NCBI RefSeq assembly: GCF_004331435.1
Contig: NZ_SJKA01000001.1
Span: forward strand, 1-64,000
DNA: 64,000 bases
Reading direction: 5' to 3'
Source of the DNA: Kribbella sindirgiensis
GTDB taxonomy: Bacteria > Actinomycetota > Actinomycetes > Propionibacteriales > Kribbellaceae
Shown here piece after piece: positions 23,457 through 33,994 of this stretch. The notes under the pieces were generated by a model. That model was not told the DNA's origin. It did no database searches and worked only from the letters and a program-made list of their open reading frames with translations. The position numbers and the translations under genes are program-made. Each line of letters begins with the position of its first letter. Position 1 is the stretch's first letter.

Positions 23457-24911
23457 TCAGTCGACGTTGATTGCGACGTACTTGACGTCCAGGTACTCGT
23501 CGATGCCGATGGCGCCGCCCTCTCGGCCGAGGCCGGACTGTTTTACGCCGCCGAACGGGGCGGCGGGGTTGGAGACGATGCCCTGGTTGAGGCCGATCAT
23601 GCCGGCCTCGAGGCGTTCGGAGACGCGGAGTGCACGGCTCAGATCCCTGGTGAACAGGTAGGAGACCAGGCCGAACTCCGTGTCGTTGGCCATCCGTACG
23701 GCCTCGTCCTCGGTGTCGAACGCGGTCAGCGGCGCGACCGGGCCGAAGATCTCCTCTTTCTGCAGCCGGGCGCTCTGCGGTACGTCGGCCAGCACCGTCG
23801 GCTGGAAGAAGTACCCGTTGCCCTCAGCAACCGATCCGCCGGTCAGCGCGCGGGCGCCCTGCGCGATCGCGTCCGCGACCAGATCGGCCACCTTGTCCCG
23901 CTGCTTGGAGTCGATCAGCGGGCCGACGTCGACGCCGTCCTCGGTGCCGCGGCCGACCTTCAGTGCGGCCATCCGCTCGGTCAGCCGGGTCGCGAACTCG
24001 GCCATCACCGACGACTGCACGTAGATCCGGTTGGCCGCCGTACAGGCCTCACCGCCGTTGCGCATCTTGGCCAGCATCGCGCCTTCGACGGCCTTGTCCA
24101 GGTCGGCGTCCTCGAACACCAGCAGCGGCGCGTTCCCGCCGAGCTCCATGCTGGTCCGCAGGACCTGCTCCGATGCTTGCTCGAGCAGCTTGCGGCCGAC
24201 CGGAGTCGAGCCGGTGAAGGAGAGTTTGCGCGCGCGGCCGTCACGGATCAGCGGTTCCATCACGCCGCCCGCGTCGTGCGTGGTGACCACGTTGAGGACG
24301 CCGGCCGGGAGCCCGGCCTCGGTCATCAGCTCGGCCAGCTTGAGCATCGACAGCGGCGTCTGCGCGGCCGGCTTGATCACCATCGTGCAGCCGGCCGCGA
24401 CCGCCGGGCCGATCTTGCGGGCACCCATCGCCGCGGGGAAGTTCCACGGCGTGATCAGCAAGCACGGGCCGACGGGCCGGCGCATCACCAGGAAGCGGCT
24501 CGCACCGTTCGGCGCGATCTGGTAGCCACCGTCGATCCGGACCGCTTCCTCGGCGAACCAGCGGAAGAACTCGGCCGCGTAGGCGATCTCGCCCTTGGAC
24601 TCGGCGACCGGCTTACCCATCTCGAGCGTCATCAGCAGCGCGAGGTCGTCGGCCCGCTCGGTCATCAGCTCATAGGTGCGGCGGAGGATCTCGCCACGTT
24701 CCCGCGGCGCCGTCGCGGCCCAGTCGGCCTGTGCGGCGACCGCGGCGTCCAGAGCGGCCATACCGTCCGCCGGGCGCGCATCAGCGACCTCGCAGAGCGT
24801 CGTACCGGTCGACGGGTCCTCGACGGCAAAGGTCCTGGAGGCCGCCACCCATTTACCGCCGATGAACAACTCGGTCGGACACGCCTCGACAACTTCGCGC
24901 TCTCGTGACAT
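23457..24911 (-). CDS. gabD: NAD(P)-dependent succinate-semialdehyde-type dehydrogenase
   Basis: A 484-aa aldehyde dehydrogenase of the GabD group, converting succinate semialdehyde (or a close aldehyde) to the acid. Visible are TPWNFPAAMGARKIGPA with MVIKPA for cofactor binding, FTGSTPVGRKL, the general-base Glu256 in MELGGNAP and the nucleophile Cys290 in GGEACTAANR. The C-terminal GLNQGIVSNPAAPFGGVKQSGLGREGG is given by its ends GLNQGIVSN and GLGREGG, typical of SSADH. It lies alone; the palindromic element copy 2 begins 12 nt upstream of its start and so forms its 5' untranslated region. Alpha-ketoglutarate-semialdehyde is an alternative substrate. Confidence 0.88.
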   Translation of the reverse strand: MSREREVVEACPTELFIGGKWVAASRTFAVEDPSTGTTLCEVADARPADGMAALDAAVAAQADWAATAPRERGEILRRTYELMTERADDLALLMTLEMGKPVAESKGEIAYAAEFFRWFAEEAVRIDGGYQIAPNGASRFLVMRRPVGPCLLITPWNFPAAMGARKIGPAVAAGCTMVIKPAAQTPLSMLKLAELMTEAGLPAGVLNVVTTHDAGGVMEPLIRDGRARKLSFTGSTPVGRKLLEQASEQVLRTSMELGGNAPLLVFEDADLDKAVEGAMLAKMRNGGEACTAANRIYVQSSVMAEFATRLTERMAALKVGRGTEDGVDVGPLIDSKQRDKVADLVADAIAQGARALTGGSVAEGNGYFFQPTVLADVPQSARLQKEEIFGPVAPLTAFDTEDEAVRMANDTEFGLVSYLFTRDLSRALRVSERLEAGMIGLNQGIVSNPAAPFGGVKQSGLGREGGAIGIDEYLDVKYVAINVD

Positions 24912-25086: not shown

Positions 25087-26160
25087 TTAGGCCGTGGCGA
25101 TGAGAGGCGGTGCGGACCTCGGGACCGTGCGGACGACCCGGGTCAGGGCGGACGCGACGTTGCGCAGGATCGATGACCGGATCAGTCCGTCGAAGGCCAG
25201 CGGGACGAGCATGAGCTCGTCGGCGGTCGTCTCGACGACCAGCCCGCCCAGGGCGGCCGCGACGGTCGCACGGGAGCCGACGATGTGCCCCGGATAGTCC
25301 AGCAGCCGTTCGGCTTTACCGCGCTCACGACCGGTCAGCGGGGGCTCCAGCAACGCCATGAGCTCCCCCGGCGTCGCGCGCGCTCCAGCAGCGGCCAGGC
25401 GGCTCTGCACGCGGACATACTCGGCGAACCGGATGAGCGCTTCCTCGTCCGAGTCCGCCGCCACCACTCCGACCGTCGCAGCGATGTACGGCCGCGTTTT
25501 CGGCCCGGTCGGCTCGAAGTGCTCGCGGTACGCCGCCATCGCGGCAGGTGTCGTCGCCGCCGCGCAGTGATGCGCCAGGAACACAGGCAGCCCACGTGCA
25601 GCGGCTGTCATCGCAGCAGCCGGGCGATCGGCCAGTACGAACACAGGTGGTGCCTGGCCGGCCAGCGACAGCCGTACGTCGCCTACCGGCGCCCGCCCCG
25701 GCGTACCGTCGCGCAGGAACCCGCACAACTCGTCGAGCCGCTGCGGAAACGTGTTGCGCGCACCACTCGCGAGTGCAGCCGCAGTACTGGGCGCAACGGT
25801 GCTCTGCTCCGCGACACCGAGGTCGATCCGACCCGGGTACGCCGCAGCGAGCGCAGCGAACTGCTCGGCAACGACCAGCGGCTGGTGGTTGGTCAGTAGG
25901 AGCCCGCCGGCCCCCAACCGGATGCGATCCGTTCGTGCAGCCAGGACGGCTGCCAGTACCGCCGGTGCTGCACCGCCGACGCCTCGGACACCATGCTGCT
26001 CCCCTATCCAGAACCGGCGGTACCCGAGGTCATCAGCGGCCAGTGCGACCTCCGCCGTCTCCCGGAGCGCGGCCGCAGCCGACTGACCGGGCAGCTGCGG
26101 TACGACGTCCAGCACAGAGTGAGCCGAGACAGTCAAACCGGGAACAGGTGGAGTGAGCAC
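25087..26160 (-). CDS. LLM-class flavin/F420-dependent oxidoreductase, possible dehydroamino-acid reductase
   Basis: A 357-aa luciferase-like TIM-barrel oxidoreductase. Family features are VLDVVPQ at the start, ALAADDLGYRRFWIGEQHG, IRLGAGGLLLTNHQPLVVAEQFA given by its ends IRLGAGG and VVAEQFA, and PVFVLADRPAA. GTG 26160 is chosen because the conserved barrel begins there; a longer frame upstream has no family similarity. It is divergent from lanM. F420-dependent LLM enzymes called LanJC (for example LxmJ of lexapeptide) reduce dehydroalanine to D-alanine in lanthipeptides, so that role is attractive here, but it is inferred from position only. Confidence 0.8.
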   Translation of the reverse strand: MLTPPVPGLTVSAHSVLDVVPQLPGQSAAAALRETAEVALAADDLGYRRFWIGEQHGVRGVGGAAPAVLAAVLAARTDRIRLGAGGLLLTNHQPLVVAEQFAALAAAYPGRIDLGVAEQSTVAPSTAAALASGARNTFPQRLDELCGFLRDGTPGRAPVGDVRLSLAGQAPPVFVLADRPAAAMTAAARGLPVFLAHHCAAATTPAAMAAYREHFEPTGPKTRPYIAATVGVVAADSDEEALIRFAEYVRVQSRLAAAGARATPGELMALLEPPLTGRERGKAERLLDYPGHIVGSRATVAAALGGLVVETTADELMLVPLAFDGLIRSSILRNVASALTRVVRTVPRSAPPLIATA

Positions 26161-26193
26161 CAGCCCACGGTCGCAGCGACGGGCCCGATCCGC

Positions 26194-26374
26194 ATGGGGG
26201 TTCGCCCCCCATCTTCCGGCAGTTATGCCCCCATCCGCCGGGGTGTTTCCGCAGCGTGAATTTGGGTGTTCGGAGCTCTTGTTCCGGACCGTACTGCGCA
26301 GGCATCGTTCCGGTCCACCGGCCTGCTGCCACCACAGTCCGTCTAGGTGCCGATCACAGCGCAAATATGGGGGC
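26194..26374. promoter_or_regulatory. ATGGGGG boxes in the LLM-lanM divergent region
   Basis: The 223-bp divergent gap holds four copies of ATGGGGG or its complement: ATGGGGG (26194-26200) opposite CCCCCCAT (26205-26212), forming a hairpin with a TTCG loop; GCCCCCAT (26227-26234); and ATGGGGGC (26367-26374) just before lanM. Such clustered, oriented boxes suggest binding sites for the cluster regulator, or a structured leader on the LLM transcript. Confidence 0.45.
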
Positions 26375-26383
26375 TGACTACCC

Positions 26384-29362
26384 ATGCCCGGGCCCAGGGG
26401 GCGGTGGCAGCCTGAGCGCGTGCTCAACTCCGCGATCCGCACCGGCCAGCCAGATATCTGGTGGTCCGCGGGCCTGCGGCAGCACGAGCAGATCCACGCC
26501 CTCACCCGGTCCGCGCCGGCCTGGGCCGAGTACGTGGAACGCAGCATCTCTCTCCCACCGAGCGCGCCTGCCGCCGGTCGAGACCCTGCAGGGACCGGTG
26601 TCACCGGCGGCCACACTTCAGGTGGGGCGGCCGCGACAGCGGATGGGTCCGGCACGGACTGGCGGCAGGCGCTCATGCGTTGCCTGGAGCCGTTGCTGGA
26701 TTCGGCTCGCCAGGATCTGGCCGCGGCCGGTCATACCGGAGCCGTCACCGAGGAGTTCCTGCAACGACTCGGCCTCCGGTTGGTGACGTTGGCCGCTCGC
26801 ACGCTGGTCCTGGAGCTCGCCCGAGCCCGGGACCGCGGCGAGCTGGCCGGCGACACCCCGGCCGCGCGCTTCCTGGACTTCACGCACCGGCTCGTCGGAG
26901 GGAGCGAACTGGCGGAGCTTCTGGCCGCCTACCCGGTGCTTGCCCGGGTCCTGGGCGAGTCGTGCCGGCAGAGCGTCGAGGGACACCTCGAGCTACTGGC
27001 ACGGCTCGCCGAGGACCGCGAGTCTCTCGTCACCGGACTGCTGGACGGCCAGGACCCTGGTGCGCTGACCGCGATCGAGCCCAGTGGCGATCCGCACCGG
27101 GGCGGACGCTGCACCGCCATCCTCACCTTCGCGGACGGCCGACGGGTGGTCTACAAGCCCCGGCCGCTCGAGCTGCACCAGCACTTCAACACCTTCGTGG
27201 ACTGGCTGAACACCAAGGCGTCGCTGGGCATCCGCACGGTCCGGCTACTCACCTGCGACGGCTACGGCTGGCTGGAGTACGTCGTTCACGAGCCCTGTTC
27301 TGACGTTGCCGGCGTACGGCGGTTCTACCAGCGGCAGGGCGCGTTGCTGGCGTTGCTCTACGTGCTCGACGGCACGGACATGCACGTCGAGAACCTGATC
27401 GCCGCAGGCGACCAGCCGGTACTGGTGGATATCGAGACCCTGTTCCACCCCAGTCCGGTGCCGGTGTCCGCGTTGGCCCTCGATCCGGCGCACCGAGCGC
27501 TCGACCGATCGGTGTACCGCACGGCACTGCTGCCGCTGCTCGTGCCGGGTGAGCACGGTGTCTCGGACGTGTCCGGGCTGGGCGGGCACACCGGCTCGCT
27601 AACAGCCGCGAGCGTGGCCGACTGGGCCGACGCCGGCCTGGACTCGATGCACCTGGTCCGGCGACCTGGGCAGACGCGGAGCGCTGCCAACCGTCCGATG
27701 CTCGACGGACAACTGATGGAGCCGCGGGATCACGAACCCGCCCTGCTGAGCGGATTCCGGGCCGCGTATGAGGCGATCGCCTGGCACCGCGACGAGTTGC
27801 TCGGGCCGGACGGGTTGCTGGCGGCCTGTGCTGCCGACCAGATGCGGTTCGTGGCCCGCCCGACGAGCCTGTACCGGACCCTGCTGGACGAGTCGACGCA
27901 TCCCGACGCGTTGCGCGACGCGGCCGGCCGCAGTCAGCTGCTCGACCTGCTGTGGGACGCGGACGAATCGCTGCAGGCGATCGTCCCCTGCGAGCTGGCC
28001 GACCTGTGGGCGGGCGACGTACCGCTGTTCACTGCGCGCCCGGACAGCCGGGACCTGTGGGCGTCCGACGGCACGCGTGTCGCCGATGTCCTTGCCACCG
28101 AAGGCCTGGCCGCGGTCCAGGCGAAGGTCGCGAGCCTCGGTGACATCGATGAACACCGCCAGGCGTGGTTGGTCTCCGCATCGCTCGCCACCCGCCCGGG
28201 CCCGATCACCCACACCGGTGCGGCCACCCGGCCACACGTGGGGGCGACCGCACCGGACCCGGAGGAGATGCTGGCCGCGGCCGTGGACATCGCCGACGAA
28301 GTCATGGCGCAGGTGATCAGCGAGCCCGGCGGCCTGGCCAACTGGCTCGGCCTCGAACTGCTCGACGACCGCTACTGGGCCGTCCGTCAGATGGGCGCCG
28401 GCCTGTCCAACGGTTACACGGGTACGGCGCTCTTCCTCGCACAGGTCGGCGTACTGACCGGAGCCGGCAAGTACTGCGAGCTGGCCCGCGATGCGATCCG
28501 CCCGATCCCGCAACTGCTCGAAGCCCTCTCGGGTGACCTGGAGTCCGCTCAGCTGATCGGCCCCGGGTTCCACGGGCTCGGCGGCATCAGCTACGGCCTC
28601 AACCTACTCTCGGCGCTCCTCGGCGACAGTGACCTCACCACCTGGCTGGCCGCGTCCCTGGAGCTCAGCGAGCAGGTCGCACTGGACCCCACCGACTTCC
28701 CGTCGTACGCCGAAGGCGCGGCGGGTGGACTGGCCGCGATGCAAGCAATAGCAGGCCTTCCGGCCGCCGGCCGGCTGGCCGAGCGGTATGCAGACCTCCT
28801 GGTAGCCACAGTCGAGAGCGGGCTCCGTGGCCGAGTAGCAGCGGTCCGCGGCTTCGCTCGTGGCTACCAGGGCATCGCGTGGTCGCTCGGGCACTTCGGC
28901 GTACCTGGTGACAGGTACGCCGACGCCGCCCGAGCGGCCGCCGATCTGGACCGCCGGGATGTTCCGGGCGGCCACGGGTGGTGCTCGGGTGACGCCGGCA
29001 CCGCTTTGGCCCGGGCGGCGGCAGGAGTACCCGCGGACCTCACCTCCTATCTGAGGACCGCGACAGAACGGCCGGTGCTCGCCGATCTGAGTCTGTGCCA
29101 CGGCGAGCTCGGCGCGGTGGAGTCACTCGTGTGGCTCGCCGAACGTGAGCACCCAACTGCAGAGGCGGCACGGCGACGTCGTGCCGGGTTGGTGCTCGCG
29201 GCAGTACAGCAGTACGGACCGCAATGCGGGACACCTAACGCCGTACCGTCTCCAGGCCTGCTGACCGGTCTGGCAGGGATCGGGTACGGGCTGCTCCGAC
29301 TTGCGTTCCCCGAACGGGTTCCGTCCGTGCTGTTGCTGGAACCAACCACCGGGCCGCGGTGA
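26384..29362 (+). CDS. lanM: Class II lanthionine synthetase (LanM) with altered cyclase site
   Basis: A 992-aa bifunctional synthetase. The N-terminal dehydratase (DUF4135) phosphorylates and dehydrates Ser/Thr; it shows VVYKPRPLELHQHF, DGTDMHVENLIA and LVDIETLFHP, so its kinase-like site looks complete. The C-terminal LanC-like domain keeps zinc ligands Cys867 (GWCSG) and Cys905-His906 (LCHGELG). However, the conserved catalytic His of the HG motif seems replaced by Arg826 (GFARGYQGI). Cyclisation may therefore be weak or absent. ATG 26384 is used; the first 20 residues are Pro/Arg-rich and the true start could be a little further in. The small peptide gene follows 41 nt downstream. No LanT transporter or protease lies beside it. 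Confidence 0.9.
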   Translation: MPGPRGRWQPERVLNSAIRTGQPDIWWSAGLRQHEQIHALTRSAPAWAEYVERSISLPPSAPAAGRDPAGTGVTGGHTSGGAAATADGSGTDWRQALMRCLEPLLDSARQDLAAAGHTGAVTEEFLQRLGLRLVTLAARTLVLELARARDRGELAGDTPAARFLDFTHRLVGGSELAELLAAYPVLARVLGESCRQSVEGHLELLARLAEDRESLVTGLLDGQDPGALTAIEPSGDPHRGGRCTAILTFADGRRVVYKPRPLELHQHFNTFVDWLNTKASLGIRTVRLLTCDGYGWLEYVVHEPCSDVAGVRRFYQRQGALLALLYVLDGTDMHVENLIAAGDQPVLVDIETLFHPSPVPVSALALDPAHRALDRSVYRTALLPLLVPGEHGVSDVSGLGGHTGSLTAASVADWADAGLDSMHLVRRPGQTRSAANRPMLDGQLMEPRDHEPALLSGFRAAYEAIAWHRDELLGPDGLLAACAADQMRFVARPTSLYRTLLDESTHPDALRDAAGRSQLLDLLWDADESLQAIVPCELADLWAGDVPLFTARPDSRDLWASDGTRVADVLATEGLAAVQAKVASLGDIDEHRQAWLVSASLATRPGPITHTGAATRPHVGATAPDPEEMLAAAVDIADEVMAQVISEPGGLANWLGLELLDDRYWAVRQMGAGLSNGYTGTALFLAQVGVLTGAGKYCELARDAIRPIPQLLEALSGDLESAQLIGPGFHGLGGISYGLNLLSALLGDSDLTTWLAASLELSEQVALDPTDFPSYAEGAAGGLAAMQAIAGLPAAGRLAERYADLLVATVESGLRGRVAAVRGFARGYQGIAWSLGHFGVPGDRYADAARAAADLDRRDVPGGHGWCSGDAGTALARAAAGVPADLTSYLRTATERPVLADLSLCHGELGAVESLVWLAEREHPTAEAARRRRAGLVLAAVQQYGPQCGTPNAVPSPGLLTGLAGIGYGLLRLAFPERVPSVLLLEPTTGPR

Positions 29363-29403
29363 GGCACAGCACCAGAGCCCCACACTGTGACAAGGGGAAC
29401 AGC

Positions 29404-29613
29404 ATGACCGCCCAGCACCACGATGTTCAGCACGAAACTCCGGTGGACGAGCAGCACCCGACGCCGGACCGCACCGACCCGCTCGGCCCGATCACGTTGC
29501 CGAAGCTGCACAAGGTCGGCGCCCGGGCGATGGCCCTCGCCGGGGTCGTCGGCATGAGCGCCGCGGCGGTCGCCGTCATGGCCCCCGACGGCTGGCCGAA
29601 CGGCTCGCTCTAG
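29404..29613 (+). CDS. Small peptide after lanM, candidate Cys-free precursor
   Basis: A 69-aa peptide with an AAGGGG site upstream. Residues 1-27 are hydrophilic, rich in His, Asp, Glu and Pro, like a leader. Residues 39-60 are a hydrophobic Ala/Val/Gly helix (ARAMALAGVVGMSAAAV), and the tail is DGWPNGSL. There is no Cys anywhere; modifiable residues in the C-terminal half are only Ser52 and Ser68. Position directly after lanM makes it the best precursor candidate, giving at most dehydrated or D-Ala-containing products rather than lanthionine. Alternatively it is a small membrane protein, such as an immunity peptide. A terminator follows. Confidence 0.7.
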   Translation: MTAQHHDVQHETPVDEQHPTPDRTDPLGPITLPKLHKVGARAMALAGVVGMSAAAVAVMAPDGWPNGSL

Positions 29614-29649: not shown

Positions 29650-29735
29650 GACCGAGTGGCCGGCCGCTCGCCTGATCGGCCGGTCACCGGCGAACTTCCT
29701 GCGCTGACAACCATCAGTCGTTACAGTTGGCAATC

Positions 29736-32660
29736 ATGCAGACCCGTTCGCCTAGGGTGGTCGGCCGAGACCAGGAGCTCGAGAGCCTTGACCGCCTGCT
29801 GGCCGGAGCCCGCGACGGCCACGGCGGTGCGATCTTCCTGGTCGGCGAGCCTGGCATCGGCAAGAGCCGACTGGCCGCGACCGCCACCTCCCAGGCCCTC
29901 GACGCCGGTATGACGATGCTGCGCGGACGGGTCGGCGCGATCGGAACGATGGTTGCGTTCCGCCCGTTCACCGAGGCTCTGCTCTCGTTGATCCGGCGCG
30001 GCGAGATGCCCATGACGGACAGCCTCGGCCCGTACCGGCAAGTTCTCGGCCGGCTCGTGCCGGACTGGGACGACGGCAGCGCACACGACACGGCTGCGTC
30101 ACCCGTCGTGCTCGGTGAGGCAGTGCTGCGGCTGCTCGCTCTGGTCGGCCGGGACCACGGTTGTCTGCTGGTTCTCGAGGACCTGCACGGCTCCGACCCG
30201 GAGACGCTCGCGGTGATCGAGTACCTGCTCGACAACCTGGACGAGCAGCCTATCTCTCTGGTGGCGACGATGCGGTCCGAGATCTGCGCGGCGTACGAAA
30301 TGGCGCAACTGTCGGCCCAGCGCGGTGCGGCGGAGCTGATCGAGCTGCGCCCGTTGGATCGGAGCGAGGTGGCGGAGCTGGCCGCGGGCTGTCTGGAGGT
30401 TCCGGTCGACGGCGTGCCGGAGCAGCTGGCAGACCAGCTGTGGAGCGACAGCGCCGGAATCCCCTTCATCGTCGAGGAACTGCTGCAAGAGGCGAACCGC
30501 AGCGGACAACTGGTGTCCGGGCCGGACGGCAGCGTGCAGGTGGTCGACGACCTGCAGACGAACGTCCCGCCGGCTGTGGTCCGCAGTATCAGCAGCCGTA
30601 CCGCCCAACTCGGACCGCAGTCGCGGGACATTCTTGTGCTGGCGGCTGTCATCGGGCACCGGTTCCCGCTGACCGTGGTCCGCAAGGCGACCGGAACCGA
30701 TGAACGCTTGCTGCTGGCAACTCTTCGGGCCGGCCTCGCCGCTCAGCTAGTCGGTCCGGACGAGCCGGCCCCGGACTGGTACGCGTTCCGGCACCCGCTG
30801 ACCGCCGAGTCGCTGCTCGCCGGCCTGACACCGACCGAGCGCTCGGACTTGGCCCGGCGCTGCGCGGACGCGGTCGAGGAACTGCATCCCGGTCTGCCGG
30901 GCGAGTGGTGCCCGATGGTCGCCGAACTCGCCGAATCCGGCGGCGACACGATCCGCGCCGGCCGGTTGTTCGCCCTGGCCGGACGGCGGTCGTTCGAGGA
31001 GGGCTCGACCGGGTCGGCGGCCAACCTGCTGGACCGCGCGAACACCCTGCTCGCCGGCGATCCCGACATCGGCCACCGGGCCGAGGTCCTCGGCTCGCTG
31101 CTGCTCGCGCTCAGTGCGACCGGAGGCTTCGAGCACATCGCCGCGCACACCGCGACCGTCGACGAACTGGCCGACCGCAACCTCGACAGCCGCAAGCTCG
31201 CCGCTCTGTACGTCCAGCTCGCGAACGCAGAGATGATGGCGGGACGCTCGTCGGTCGCGTTCGGCCATGTCGCGGCCGCTCGCTCGTTGCTCGGCACAGA
31301 CCCCGAGGACGCCGACCTCGCGCCGGTCGACGGGGTCGCCGCGAACCTCGAGCTCGCCCGCCAGAGCCCTCGGCGGATCCAGGCCGCGACCGAGCTGGCC
31401 ACCCGCGCGGCCGCGGCGGCCGAACGCGCGGAGCTGCCCGAGGTGGCCTGCGAAGCCCTGCAATTACTGGGGATCCTGGCCCGCGAGCACGACCCAGATC
31501 AGTCGATCGACTACTTCCATCGGGCGCGACAGATCGCCGAAGACCATGGGATGACGTTCCAGCGGGTCACCTCGCACTTCTTCCAGGCCGGCACCATCTG
31601 CCTCGCGAACGGCAGCATCGTCGAGCTCGAGCGGGCCCGGCAGCAAGCACTGCGGATCGGCGCGATCCCGCTGATGTATGAGGTGGACAGCATCCTCGGC
31701 CAGCAAGCGATCCTGCGGTCCGAGTACGCGCGGGCCGACGAGATCATCGCCGAGGGTGTCCGGGTCACCCGGCGACTGCGGATGGGTCGGCCCGCGACAT
31801 ACTTCCTGACCATCAAGGCAACGCTGGAAGCGCATCAGGGCCGGCGGTCCGCGATGGAGGCGACCCTGACCGAGGTCGCGAGCTGGGGCGGCGAGCGGGC
31901 GTCATACGAGCTCCCGTACTCCTATGGACTGGCGCGGACGTTCTGCGCGTTGCTGGAGGAGAACCGCGAGCTGGCCGACTCTGAGCTGGCGCAGGCGCTC
32001 GCCTACGACGCTCAGAACCCGACCACCTTGCACCTGACAGGCAAGAACGGTCTCGCGCTCCTGCTCGGCGTGCTGTCCGGGCGGAACGGCTGGGCGCACT
32101 TCGAGGTGGTCACTGCGACTGCTGCCAGTGGCATGCGGTGGAACAAACAGTTCGTCCAGCTGGCGCACGCCGTACTGCTCGGACGCGACGGTCAGGTGGA
32201 GGCGGCGAACGAGATGGTGCTCGCAGCGGCGGAGACCGCGTCGCTGTACCCGATGGCGCACCACCTCGGCCTCCGGCTGGTGGCTGAGCCCGCTCACGCG
32301 GACGGGTGGGGTGAACCGGTCGCCTGGTTGCGGCAGGCCGAGGACTACTTCCACAACGCCGACATCCAGGCGGTGGCGAGTGCGTGTCGCAGCCTCATGC
32401 GGCAGTTCGGTGCGACAGTGTCACAACGGCGGAGCGGTTCGGAACAGGTTCCGGCGTACCTCAGGCAGATGGGCGTCACCACGCGCGAGTACGAGGTGTG
32501 CCGGTTGCTGGTGGACCGGATCGGGAACAAGTCGATCGCATCCCGGCTGCACATCTCGCCGCGAACCGTCGAGAAGCACGTGGCCAGCCTGATGACCAAG
32601 ACCCAGCAACCGGACCGGGAGGCCCTGAGCAGTTTCGCCAGGACCGTGCTTCAGGACTAA
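29736..32660 (+). CDS. Large LuxR-family regulator with AAA ATPase domain (LAL type)
   Basis: A 974-aa regulator. The N-terminus has VVGRDQELESL and a Walker A loop GEPGIGKSRLA (about residue 40), a Walker B-like CLLVLEDLHGSDP, then a long helical tetratricopeptide-like middle region, and a C-terminal LuxR helix-turn-helix (TTREYEVCRLLVDRIGNKS by ends, ISPRTVEKHVASLM). Such ATP-dependent activators often control one natural-product cluster. It follows the lanM locus after a terminator in the same direction, so it is the natural activator candidate. ATG 29736 is used; TTG 29727 is possible. Confidence 0.9.
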   Translation: MQTRSPRVVGRDQELESLDRLLAGARDGHGGAIFLVGEPGIGKSRLAATATSQALDAGMTMLRGRVGAIGTMVAFRPFTEALLSLIRRGEMPMTDSLGPYRQVLGRLVPDWDDGSAHDTAASPVVLGEAVLRLLALVGRDHGCLLVLEDLHGSDPETLAVIEYLLDNLDEQPISLVATMRSEICAAYEMAQLSAQRGAAELIELRPLDRSEVAELAAGCLEVPVDGVPEQLADQLWSDSAGIPFIVEELLQEANRSGQLVSGPDGSVQVVDDLQTNVPPAVVRSISSRTAQLGPQSRDILVLAAVIGHRFPLTVVRKATGTDERLLLATLRAGLAAQLVGPDEPAPDWYAFRHPLTAESLLAGLTPTERSDLARRCADAVEELHPGLPGEWCPMVAELAESGGDTIRAGRLFALAGRRSFEEGSTGSAANLLDRANTLLAGDPDIGHRAEVLGSLLLALSATGGFEHIAAHTATVDELADRNLDSRKLAALYVQLANAEMMAGRSSVAFGHVAAARSLLGTDPEDADLAPVDGVAANLELARQSPRRIQAATELATRAAAAAERAELPEVACEALQLLGILAREHDPDQSIDYFHRARQIAEDHGMTFQRVTSHFFQAGTICLANGSIVELERARQQALRIGAIPLMYEVDSILGQQAILRSEYARADEIIAEGVRVTRRLRMGRPATYFLTIKATLEAHQGRRSAMEATLTEVASWGGERASYELPYSYGLARTFCALLEENRELADSELAQALAYDAQNPTTLHLTGKNGLALLLGVLSGRNGWAHFEVVTATAASGMRWNKQFVQLAHAVLLGRDGQVEAANEMVLAAAETASLYPMAHHLGLRLVAEPAHADGWGEPVAWLRQAEDYFHNADIQAVASACRSLMRQFGATVSQRRSGSEQVPAYLRQMGVTTREYEVCRLLVDRIGNKSIASRLHISPRTVEKHVASLMTKTQQPDREALSSFARTVLQD

Positions 32661-32706: not shown

Positions 32707-32739
32707 ACAGTATTTACGAACGCTCGCTATCTATACTGT
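32707..32739. promoter_or_regulatory. Inverted repeat before the ROK regulator
   Basis: ACAGTAT (32707-32713) and ATACTGT (32733-32739) form exact 7-bp inverted arms 19 bp apart in the AT-richer DNA ahead of the ROK gene. This is a reasonable place for an autoregulatory operator or promoter, 25 bp before the start codon. Confidence 0.4.
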
Positions 32740-32764
32740 GCGGGTGGCAAGCAAGGGGTCGGAC

Positions 32765-33994
32765 ATGAGCAAGGGAACGGTCGGCGGCGGCGGTACGACG
32801 ATGCTGCGGCGGATCAACGTGGCCGCGGTCCTGGACGCGGTACGCCGCTCCGCGCCCGCACCGTTGCGCGTCGCCGAGCTGGTCGAACGGACCGGCCTGG
32901 CCAGGCCGACGGTCGCGCAGGCCGTCGACGAGCTGCTCGACGCCGGCTGGCTGCAGCAGCACGGCCCCGACTCCGCGGACCGCTCGCTCGGCCGCCCGGC
33001 GATCCGCGTCTCACTGCGTGGGCGTGCGGCGCCGGTGCTCGGACTCGACGTCGGCCCACACCGGGTCACCGTCGGCGTCTCCGACCTGGCCGGCCGCAAG
33101 CTGTCGCTGGTACGTCGCTCCGGACCCGGATGGACCGCACAGGAGCTGCTCGGCGTCATCGGTGAGGTCATCAACGAGGCCCTGGCCGAGGCCGAGGTGC
33201 CGGCCGAGGACATCGCCGCCGTGGTCGCCGCGAGCCCTGGCATCGTCGACGAGCACACCGGCCGGGTCCAGCTGGTCCCGAGTGTGCCGGGCTGGTCGGC
33301 GATCGACCTGATCAAGCACGTCCGCGGGCTGCTCGACTGCCCGGTCATGCTGGACAACGACGCCAACCTCGCCGCACTGGCGATCGCCGCCGCGCGTGGC
33401 GGTACCGGGACGCTGCTGGCGGTGCAGTGGGGTGAGCGGCTCGGTGCGGGCATCGTCATCGACGGCCGGCTGCACCGTGGCACCGGCGCGGCCGGTGAGA
33501 TCGGCTTCATCGCCACCGACACGGACGACGTGATCAACCCGGAGGACAGCCGCGGACCGCTCGAGCGCGCGGTCGGTTCGGAGGCGATCGCGGCACTGGG
33601 TCGTCAGGCCGCGCTGGACAACCCGAAGTCGCGGCTGGCCGAGCTGGGTGGCGAGCAGCTGGACACCGCGGACGTGTTCGCCGCTGCGGCGGAGCGTGAC
33701 CCGGTAGCGCAGGCCGTCGTACAGCAGGTCGCCCGGACGTTCGCGCGCGCACTGGCTCCGTCTGTGCTCGTACTCGACCCGACCGCGGTGGTGATCGGTG
33801 GCGGTGTCGCCCGCGCCGGCGCCGTACTGCTGGACGCCATCTCGGACCAGCTGCGCCTACTGACGCTCAATCACCCGAAGCTGGAGCTCTCTGCCCTGGC
33901 CGAGGACGCTGTGGTGACCGGTGCGATGCGCATGGCCCTCGACGAGGTCTGGCAACGCAAGCTGCCCACACCGGCGATGACCAGCACTACCTAG
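32765..33994 (+). CDS. ROK-family transcriptional regulator
   Basis: A 409-aa repressor. The N-terminal winged helix (LRRINVAAVLDAVRR, then VAELVERTGLARPTVAQAVDEL by its ends) precedes a ROK sugar-kinase-like domain: GLDVGPHRVTVGV for phosphate binding, ASPGIVDEHTG, MLDNDANLAALA and GAGIVIDGRLHRGTGAAGEIG by ends. The Zn-binding Cys cluster usual in active ROK kinases is not seen, which fits a regulator rather than a kinase. ATG 32765 has AAGGGG at -7. No sugar genes are adjacent, so the target is unknown. Confidence 0.88.
   Translation: MSKGTVGGGGTTMLRRINVAAVLDAVRRSAPAPLRVAELVERTGLARPTVAQAVDELLDAGWLQQHGPDSADRSLGRPAIRVSLRGRAAPVLGLDVGPHRVTVGVSDLAGRKLSLVRRSGPGWTAQELLGVIGEVINEALAEAEVPAEDIAAVVAASPGIVDEHTGRVQLVPSVPGWSAIDLIKHVRGLLDCPVMLDNDANLAALAIAAARGGTGTLLAVQWGERLGAGIVIDGRLHRGTGAAGEIGFIATDTDDVINPEDSRGPLERAVGSEAIAALGRQAALDNPKSRLAELGGEQLDTADVFAAAAERDPVAQAVVQQVARTFARALAPSVLVLDPTAVVIGGGVARAGAVLLDAISDQLRLLTLNHPKLELSALAEDAVVTGAMRMALDEVWQRKLPTPAMTSTT

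Follow-up and report, generated by a model that had tools for sequence, protein, structure and literature searches.

The 64-kb window analysed here, by which we mean the whole stretch of DNA, comes from a Kribbella genome of 8.9 Mb in 54 contigs, whose close relatives are named Kribbella species. It contains, in this order, genes for an aldehyde dehydrogenase (ALDH) and an LLM-class oxidoreductase on the minus strand, followed on the plus strand by lanM, a small peptide gene (lanA), a gene for a LAL-type regulator and one for a ROK-family regulator (Table 1). The reading frame 25087-26676, taken as the LLM gene in an earlier sequence-only reading, is too long, as homology begins only at ~26154 and GTG 26160 is the likely start. 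For lanM, GTG 26420 is the likelier start, because ATG 26384 overlaps a conserved candidate operator and because the sister species L059 carries an in-frame stop just past the equivalent position. A search for sigma-70 promoter and terminator signals in the divergent region between LLM and lanM returned none. Two more LanC-like matches are found in the same genome (G000:C19:65791-66918 and G000:C22:764401-765000).

Table 1. Features of the lanM cassette and its borders (positions in the window).
Feature	Position	Strand	Remark
Aldehyde dehydrogenase (ALDH)	23457..24911	-	left border, outside the unit
LLM-class flavin-type oxidoreductase, MsnO8 family TIGR03558	25087..26160	-	Kribbella-specific accessory gene
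Candidate operator, LLM promoter	26194..26212		exact ATGGGGG-N5-CCCCCAT, ~34 bp upstream of GTG 26160
Candidate operator, lanM promoter	26367..26385		ATGGGGG-N5-TACCCAT, 2 mismatches, overlaps ATG 26384
lanM, class II synthetase	26420..29362	+	intact dehydratase, no acid/base pair in the cyclase; frame already open from ATG 26384
DUF4135 dehydratase domain	26930..28036	+	KPR, D-M-H-x-E-N, D-I-E-T and R...T...Y motifs kept
LanC-like cyclase domain	28391..29335	+	AlphaFold model matches LicM2
Ser774 codon	28703..28705	+	NisC Asp141 position
Arg826 codon	28859..28861	+	NisC His212 position
Cys867 codon	28982..28984	+	zinc ligand retained
Cys905-His906 codons	29096..29101	+	zinc ligands retained
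lanA, Cys-free precursor	29404..29613	+	leader DPLGPITLP..., tail APDGWPNGSL
LAL-type regulator, AAA_16 ATPase + LuxR HTH	29727..32660	+	likely start ATG 29736
ROK-family regulator	32732..33994	+	right border, outside the unit

The LanM protein is a full-length member of TIGR03897 (NCBIfam lanti_2_LanM, 722 bits against a cut-off of 304), and Pfam scores for the frame 26384-29362 were 418 bits for DUF4135 and 82 bits for LANC_like. Its dehydratase motifs are retained, as the sequence-only reading had said. That reading had also placed Arg826 at the catalytic His position of the cyclase and regarded the zinc ligands as present, and both points held in alignments: HMMER sets GFARG opposite GFSHG/GFGHG (LicM2 6st5, CylM 5dzt), and Cys867, Cys905 and His906 align with the ligands of LicM2 and CylM. 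A second loss, which had escaped it, affects the position of NisC Asp141, occupied here by Ser774. Of the characters that define a class II synthetase, the window LanM has the domain fusion, the dehydratase motifs and the zinc ligands and lacks the Asp141/His212 pair. An AlphaFold model of residues 630-992 (pLDDT 91) preserves the LanC toroid, and the closest structure is LicM2 (Z 37.2, rmsd 2.7, 349 aligned), with ThurKC at Z 28.0. In NisC, the exchanges H212N, H212F and D141N leave zinc in place and abolish cyclisation (PMC7296275). In the class III enzyme ThurKC, the two positions are occupied by Ser and Asp, with Arg610 nearby, and labionin is nevertheless formed without metal (PMC10604976); thus, loss of the Asp/His pair does not prove that cyclisation has been lost.

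Of the 38 Kribbella genomes, 36 carry the unit lanM-lanA-LAL, each time flanked by the same ALDH and ROK genes; LLM accompanies it in 34 of them, whereas in L038 and L040 only LLM is missing. The sequence-only reading had asked for the three-gene set in other genomes, and lanM-lanA with LLM was indeed recovered from these 34 Kribbella loci. LanM itself is present in 37 of the 38 genomes. G028 has a divergent lanM-LAL pair (53-59% identity) and no LLM between these flanking genes, and G030 (L139) has an empty site, where 225 bp separate the start of ALDH from that of ROK and LLM, lanM, lanA and LAL are absent as a block. The recurrence of the same unit in 36 of the 38 genomes argues against local decay as the source of the Cys-free peptide and the altered cyclase site. 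In line with this, LanM, LLM and LAL are under purifying selection, with pairwise dN/dS values mostly of ~0.1-0.25; one LanM comparison (L059) was disregarded, since it was mis-threaded by the upstream in-frame stop.

Phylum-wide sampling yielded few relatives, and genus-level sampling of Streptomyces was needed to find more: 21 of 101 Streptomyces genomes have a related LanM at E values up to 1e-100. In the L124 genome both LanM matches are canonical and do not belong to the family, and 20 Streptomyces loci were taken into the analysis. With few exceptions these carry lanM, the small peptide gene and the LAL gene on one strand; in L122 the LAL gene is reversed, and L114 ends at a contig end. 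A LanT-like ABC exporter was found in none of the 58 fetched family loci, compared with 12 of 17 control loci, the controls being LanMs without the cassette association. Many control loci have candidate Cys-rich precursors, some of which we take to be of the cinnamycin and two-component types.

All 59 family LanMs form one clade (support 99) in a phylogeny that uses only the dehydratase domain and is hence independent of the cyclase residues. None of the 59 has Asp and His together, in contrast to all 17 scorable controls, where the Asp141 position is Asp in 16 and Glu in one (a Glu-His pair). The loss maps to a single change on the tree and is older than Kribbella. The zinc ligands are present in 54 of the 59 and were lost by one further change in five Streptomyces members, and their retention suggests that the site still does something. 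Moreover, the dehydratase motifs are retained in nearly the whole clade, the exception being L074, a Kribbella homologue from another species, with Gln at one of the two elimination-motif Arg positions. The residue at the His212 position varies across the clade (R, E, D, G, T, N, H): L060 and L075 have His there, with Asp still absent, and L122 has Asp together with Arg for His.

The small peptide is 69 aa long and has no Cys at all, exactly as first read. A single Cys-free 69-mer is by itself unremarkable, and the evidence lies in the family, with a homologue in 35 of the 37 other Kribbella genomes. A Cys-rich precursor nearby, a possibility the sequence-only reading had held against itself, was also looked for: the only match to the peptide family in the window's own genome is the known peptide, with no second copy. 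Cys-bearing frames in the LLM-lanM gap were set aside as coding sequence, as their matches to many Kribbella fall simultaneously in more than one frame and on either strand, a pattern that points to conserved regulatory DNA without amounting to a formal exclusion. The leader motif is common to Kribbella and Streptomyces (DPLGPITLP, AGGITL, HPAGQISL, followed by an Arg-rich RARAxxL). No Pfam model matched the four peptides tested, and NCBIfam gave no match for five of six precursors tested and two weak matches far below the cut-off for the sixth.

Among the 57 loci with a recognised precursor, Cys is absent from the tail (the last 16 residues) in 37 and present once in 20; a second core Cys occurs only in the outlying Kribbella locus L074. 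Ser and Thr are retained in most tails, e.g., STWPTI, PWTTM and DTSVSAP, and many Kribbella tails have a C-terminal His. In the window's subclade the tail contains a single Ser, and that of the window itself is free of Cys, His and Lys; some sisters (L062, L064 and L068) have no more than one Ser/Thr within their last ~10 residues, and some sister tails end in PWVVGG and offer little or nothing to dehydrate. Two residues had been put forward as modification sites: Ser52, which sits in a hydrophobic segment, is conserved among the close relatives of the window, but Ser68 is not, and some of these relatives end in VVGG. The tail-Cys state changed at least seven times on the tree, compared with once for the Asp/His pair. 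Arg826 had been read as coupled to the loss of Cys, and we reject it as either cause or mark of that loss, since Arg is found in almost all Kribbella LanMs, including those with the Cys-bearing tail CSTWPTI. Thus, the exchange at the catalytic His and the presence of a tail Cys are to be treated separately, and because the Asp/His loss is one event, its association with the absence of Cys is not statistically independent.

LanA evolves fast (dN/dS 0.6-1.9, from few sites), and the tails of the window and L058 differ by 9.3 nonsynonymous and 1.7 synonymous changes. In L045 and L051, one cassette encodes three tandem precursors, of which some have a Cys in the tail and some do not, and several other Kribbella have two tandem copies. 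In precursors of Kribbella and of Streptomyces group A, a basic stretch precedes a hydrophobic segment, an arrangement that resembles a signal or membrane sequence and that Streptomyces group B lacks. In G027, an orphan Cys-free peptide of the family (L053 6738-6944, DPIGPPELP...TSTGTPTTRY) with a partial LAL-like match and no lanM looks like a remnant.

Comparison of upstream regions revealed the inverted repeat ATGGGGG-N5-CCCCCAT. Four of the five ATGGGGG/CCCCCAT heptamers in the window lie between LLM and lanM, and a pattern search of the 38 Kribbella genomes found the exact repeat 11 times, at most once per genome and always at the cassette, while the reversed pattern gave no match in the same genomes. 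Allowing two mismatches, a copy lies ahead of lanM in all 36 Kribbella cassettes and in 19 of the 20 from Streptomyces, and 27 of the 34 LLM-bearing Kribbella also have one upstream of LLM. The two Kribbella loci without LLM lack the second operator copy as well, which indicates that LLM belongs to the unit where it occurs. Given this specificity of the repeat for the cassette, the LAL protein is the likely binder of the candidate operator.

The LLM protein falls into the luciferase-like family PF00296, and its gene lies beside a lanthipeptide-type synthetase gene. TIGR03558 (MsnO8 family) is the only family in which it scores above the cut-off (256 bits against 167), and its scores are far below the cut-offs of the F420-LLM families. 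The nearest solved structures are two chains of 4us5, a luciferase-like monooxygenase that we take to be MsnO8. As no LLM gene is found in the 20 Streptomyces cassettes and two Kribbella also lack it, LLM is not part of the core chemistry, and the conserved chemistry would be the LanM step. By analogy with the LLM of birimositide a reduction of dehydro-residues is possible, and oxidation equally so. In birimositide, an LLM enzyme is credited with the conversion of Ser to D-Ala, the case for which LanJC was named (PMC7268733). An LLM gene of the lacticin-like two-component control loci, sought as a yardstick for LanJC, was not present within the fetched loci.

From gene order, homology, the residue losses and the absence of Cys, we infer a self-contained RiPP cassette of LAL regulator, short precursor and LanM. 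The kinase/lyase half of LanM would phosphorylate and eliminate Ser/Thr near the C terminus of the precursor to yield dehydro-residues, and the LanC half, its acid/base pair gone, probably persists for structural reasons or to bind the substrate, as in CcaM. Without this ring-closing pair, the product would be a dehydrated peptide with no, or largely no, lanthionine. Binding of the LAL protein to ATGGGGG-N5-CCCCCAT would activate lanM and, in most Kribbella, also the divergently oriented LLM gene. The LLM flavoenzyme would then probably modify the dehydrated peptide further and might do so by reducing it. That this LanM lineage dehydrates Ser/Thr without closing thioethers is the reading we favour, with moderate confidence. 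The sequence-only reading had arrived at dehydration without rings for the window alone, and this core of it agrees with the nearly clade-wide dehydratase motifs, the loss of the acid/base pair in 59 of 59 LanMs and the mostly Cys-free tails; its link between Arg826 and Cys loss has to be given up, and its Ser68 is not conserved. As a counterpoint, the 20 loci with one tail Cys mean that some members could form a ring.

Such a ring is the starting point for an unlikely alternative, in which LanM still cyclises by an altered, class III-like mechanism, with Arg826 or the Glu/Asp of Streptomyces as the new acid/base, so that Cys-bearing members would make one small thioether ring and Cys-free ones a non-thioether ring, e.g., by addition of His or Lys to a dehydro-residue. 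ThurKC, in which Ser and Asp stand in place of the pair and Arg610 lies close to the His212 site, is a precedent; the widely retained zinc ligands, the single Cys in about a third of the tails and the many Kribbella tails that end in His also agree with it, a His-butyrine crosslink being known from noursin. However, the residue at the His position drifts without any single replacement having settled, five members have lost the zinc ligands, and the window tail offers no Cys, His or Lys as nucleophile. That LanM dehydrates Ser52 and Ser68 and LLM reduces both to D-Ala, giving a linear D-amino-acid peptide, we regard as unlikely. The activity credited to the birimositide LLM enzyme (PMC7268733), the operator copy that LLM has of its own and loses with the gene, and the conservation of Ser52 would fit, but Ser52 is part of a hydrophobic segment, Ser68 is not conserved, the enzyme groups with MsnO8-type oxidoreductases far below the F420-LLM cut-offs, and neither the Streptomyces cassettes nor two of the Kribbella ones encode it.

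The rapid change of the precursor between window and L058 and the sister tails poor in Ser/Thr could also be read as decay of an ancestral one-ring lanthipeptide pathway in the window lineage, with a precursor that lost Cys and most Ser/Thr and an enzyme that followed. This is quite improbable in view of the purifying selection on LanM, LLM and LAL in the same species, the maintenance of operators, gene order and precursor frame in 36 genomes, and an Asp/His loss older than Kribbella. Finally, the small peptide would be a co-encoded regulator or leader peptide, with the true LanM substrate encoded elsewhere, if one gave most weight to its short and variable tails and to the lack of an exporter near the cassette; this we consider very improbable, as a homologous peptide follows lanM directly on its 3′ side in almost all loci, in some as two to three tandem copies, two genera have the leader motif in common, and the window's own genome holds this one peptide and no second copy.

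Dehydration without lanthionine, the reading preferred here, has its nearest precedent in CcaM of the dehydrazoles (carnazolamide), which carries out LanM-type dehydration and needs its attached cyclase domain for it (PMC10676384). Like the window LanM, CcaM (LanMbC) is a LanM-type dehydratase fused to a cyclase domain, which in CcaM makes no lanthionine, so that the product has dehydro-residues only. In contrast, the CcaM domain is class III-type and zinc-independent, while ours has zinc ligands and a model closer to LicM2 than to ThurKC; moreover, CcaM works with a YcaO protein and needs azoles, whereas the family described here has a conserved leader-like motif and no YcaO partner was found among the unit genes or the scanned flanking genes of the window. 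Our literature search, of partial coverage, for Cys-free or lanthionine-free LanM systems returned the CcaM precedent and nothing on this family. With the canonical class II enzymes LicM2 and CylM, the window LanM has in common the DUF4135 dehydratase and LanC-like domains, TIGR03897, the LanC fold and the zinc ligands, but its clade lost the catalytic Asp and His, its precursor is encoded downstream of lanM and is mostly Cys-free, no LanT-like exporter occurs in the loci, and a LAL gene is attached. Lanthipeptides are defined by thioether rings, for which the precursor has to supply a Cys able to form Lan/MeLan; the window peptide has none and some relatives have one. The highly promiscuous synthetase of the prochlorosins also has Cys-lacking peptides among its substrates (PMC11251773); it is a cyclase with a CCC zinc site and broad specificity, in contrast to a whole clade without the acid/base pair.

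LanJC enzymes (the birimositide LLM and LxmJ of lexapeptide) are likewise PF00296 oxidoreductases adjoining a lanthipeptide-type synthetase gene, but LxmJ is described as F420H2-dependent and the window LLM falls into TIGR03558, a contrast drawn from the description of LxmJ. Bicereucin is a mixed two-component system that contains D-amino acids. Its LanM system reportedly combines dehydration with subsequent reduction. Conceptually it would be the closest product if both steps occur here as well, whereas no known J-type reductase was identified at our locus and the window cassette encodes no Cys-bearing partner peptide.

LanM proteins are usually read as ring makers, and Cys-free precursors are discarded in genome mining; one pipeline drops ORFs without a core Cys (PMC7268733). 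In a clade that has lost the ring-closing residues and whose peptides are mostly Cys-free, such mining would have missed many precursors. We tentatively suggest, with slightly more doubt than belief, that the clade represents a RiPP class that is widespread in actinobacteria and has no name in Pfam or NCBIfam. Its LanM would act as a pure dehydratase of Cys-free Thr/Ser tails, with added tailoring by a flavoenzyme in Kribbella and with expression under a dedicated LAL/operator switch, and its products would be dehydropeptides free of thioethers whose role is conserved and probably physiological. That the cassette is nearly core in one genus and has no exporter nearby suggests such a role and speaks against a typical antibiotic. 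The idea of a cyclase fold kept only as a scaffold for dehydration is testable, and each cassette would be a compact source of dehydropeptides that already comes with a candidate regulator and operator. The clade reaches nearly all Kribbella and ~20 percent of the sampled Streptomyces. Among the latter, zinc-less LanM cassettes lie near a Lant_dehydr_N (LanB-like) gene in L111 (14632-16959) and in the same area of L107, L112 and L115, possibly within a larger hybrid cluster; L111 also has a peptidase S51, a phosphopantetheinyl transferase and an MFS gene.
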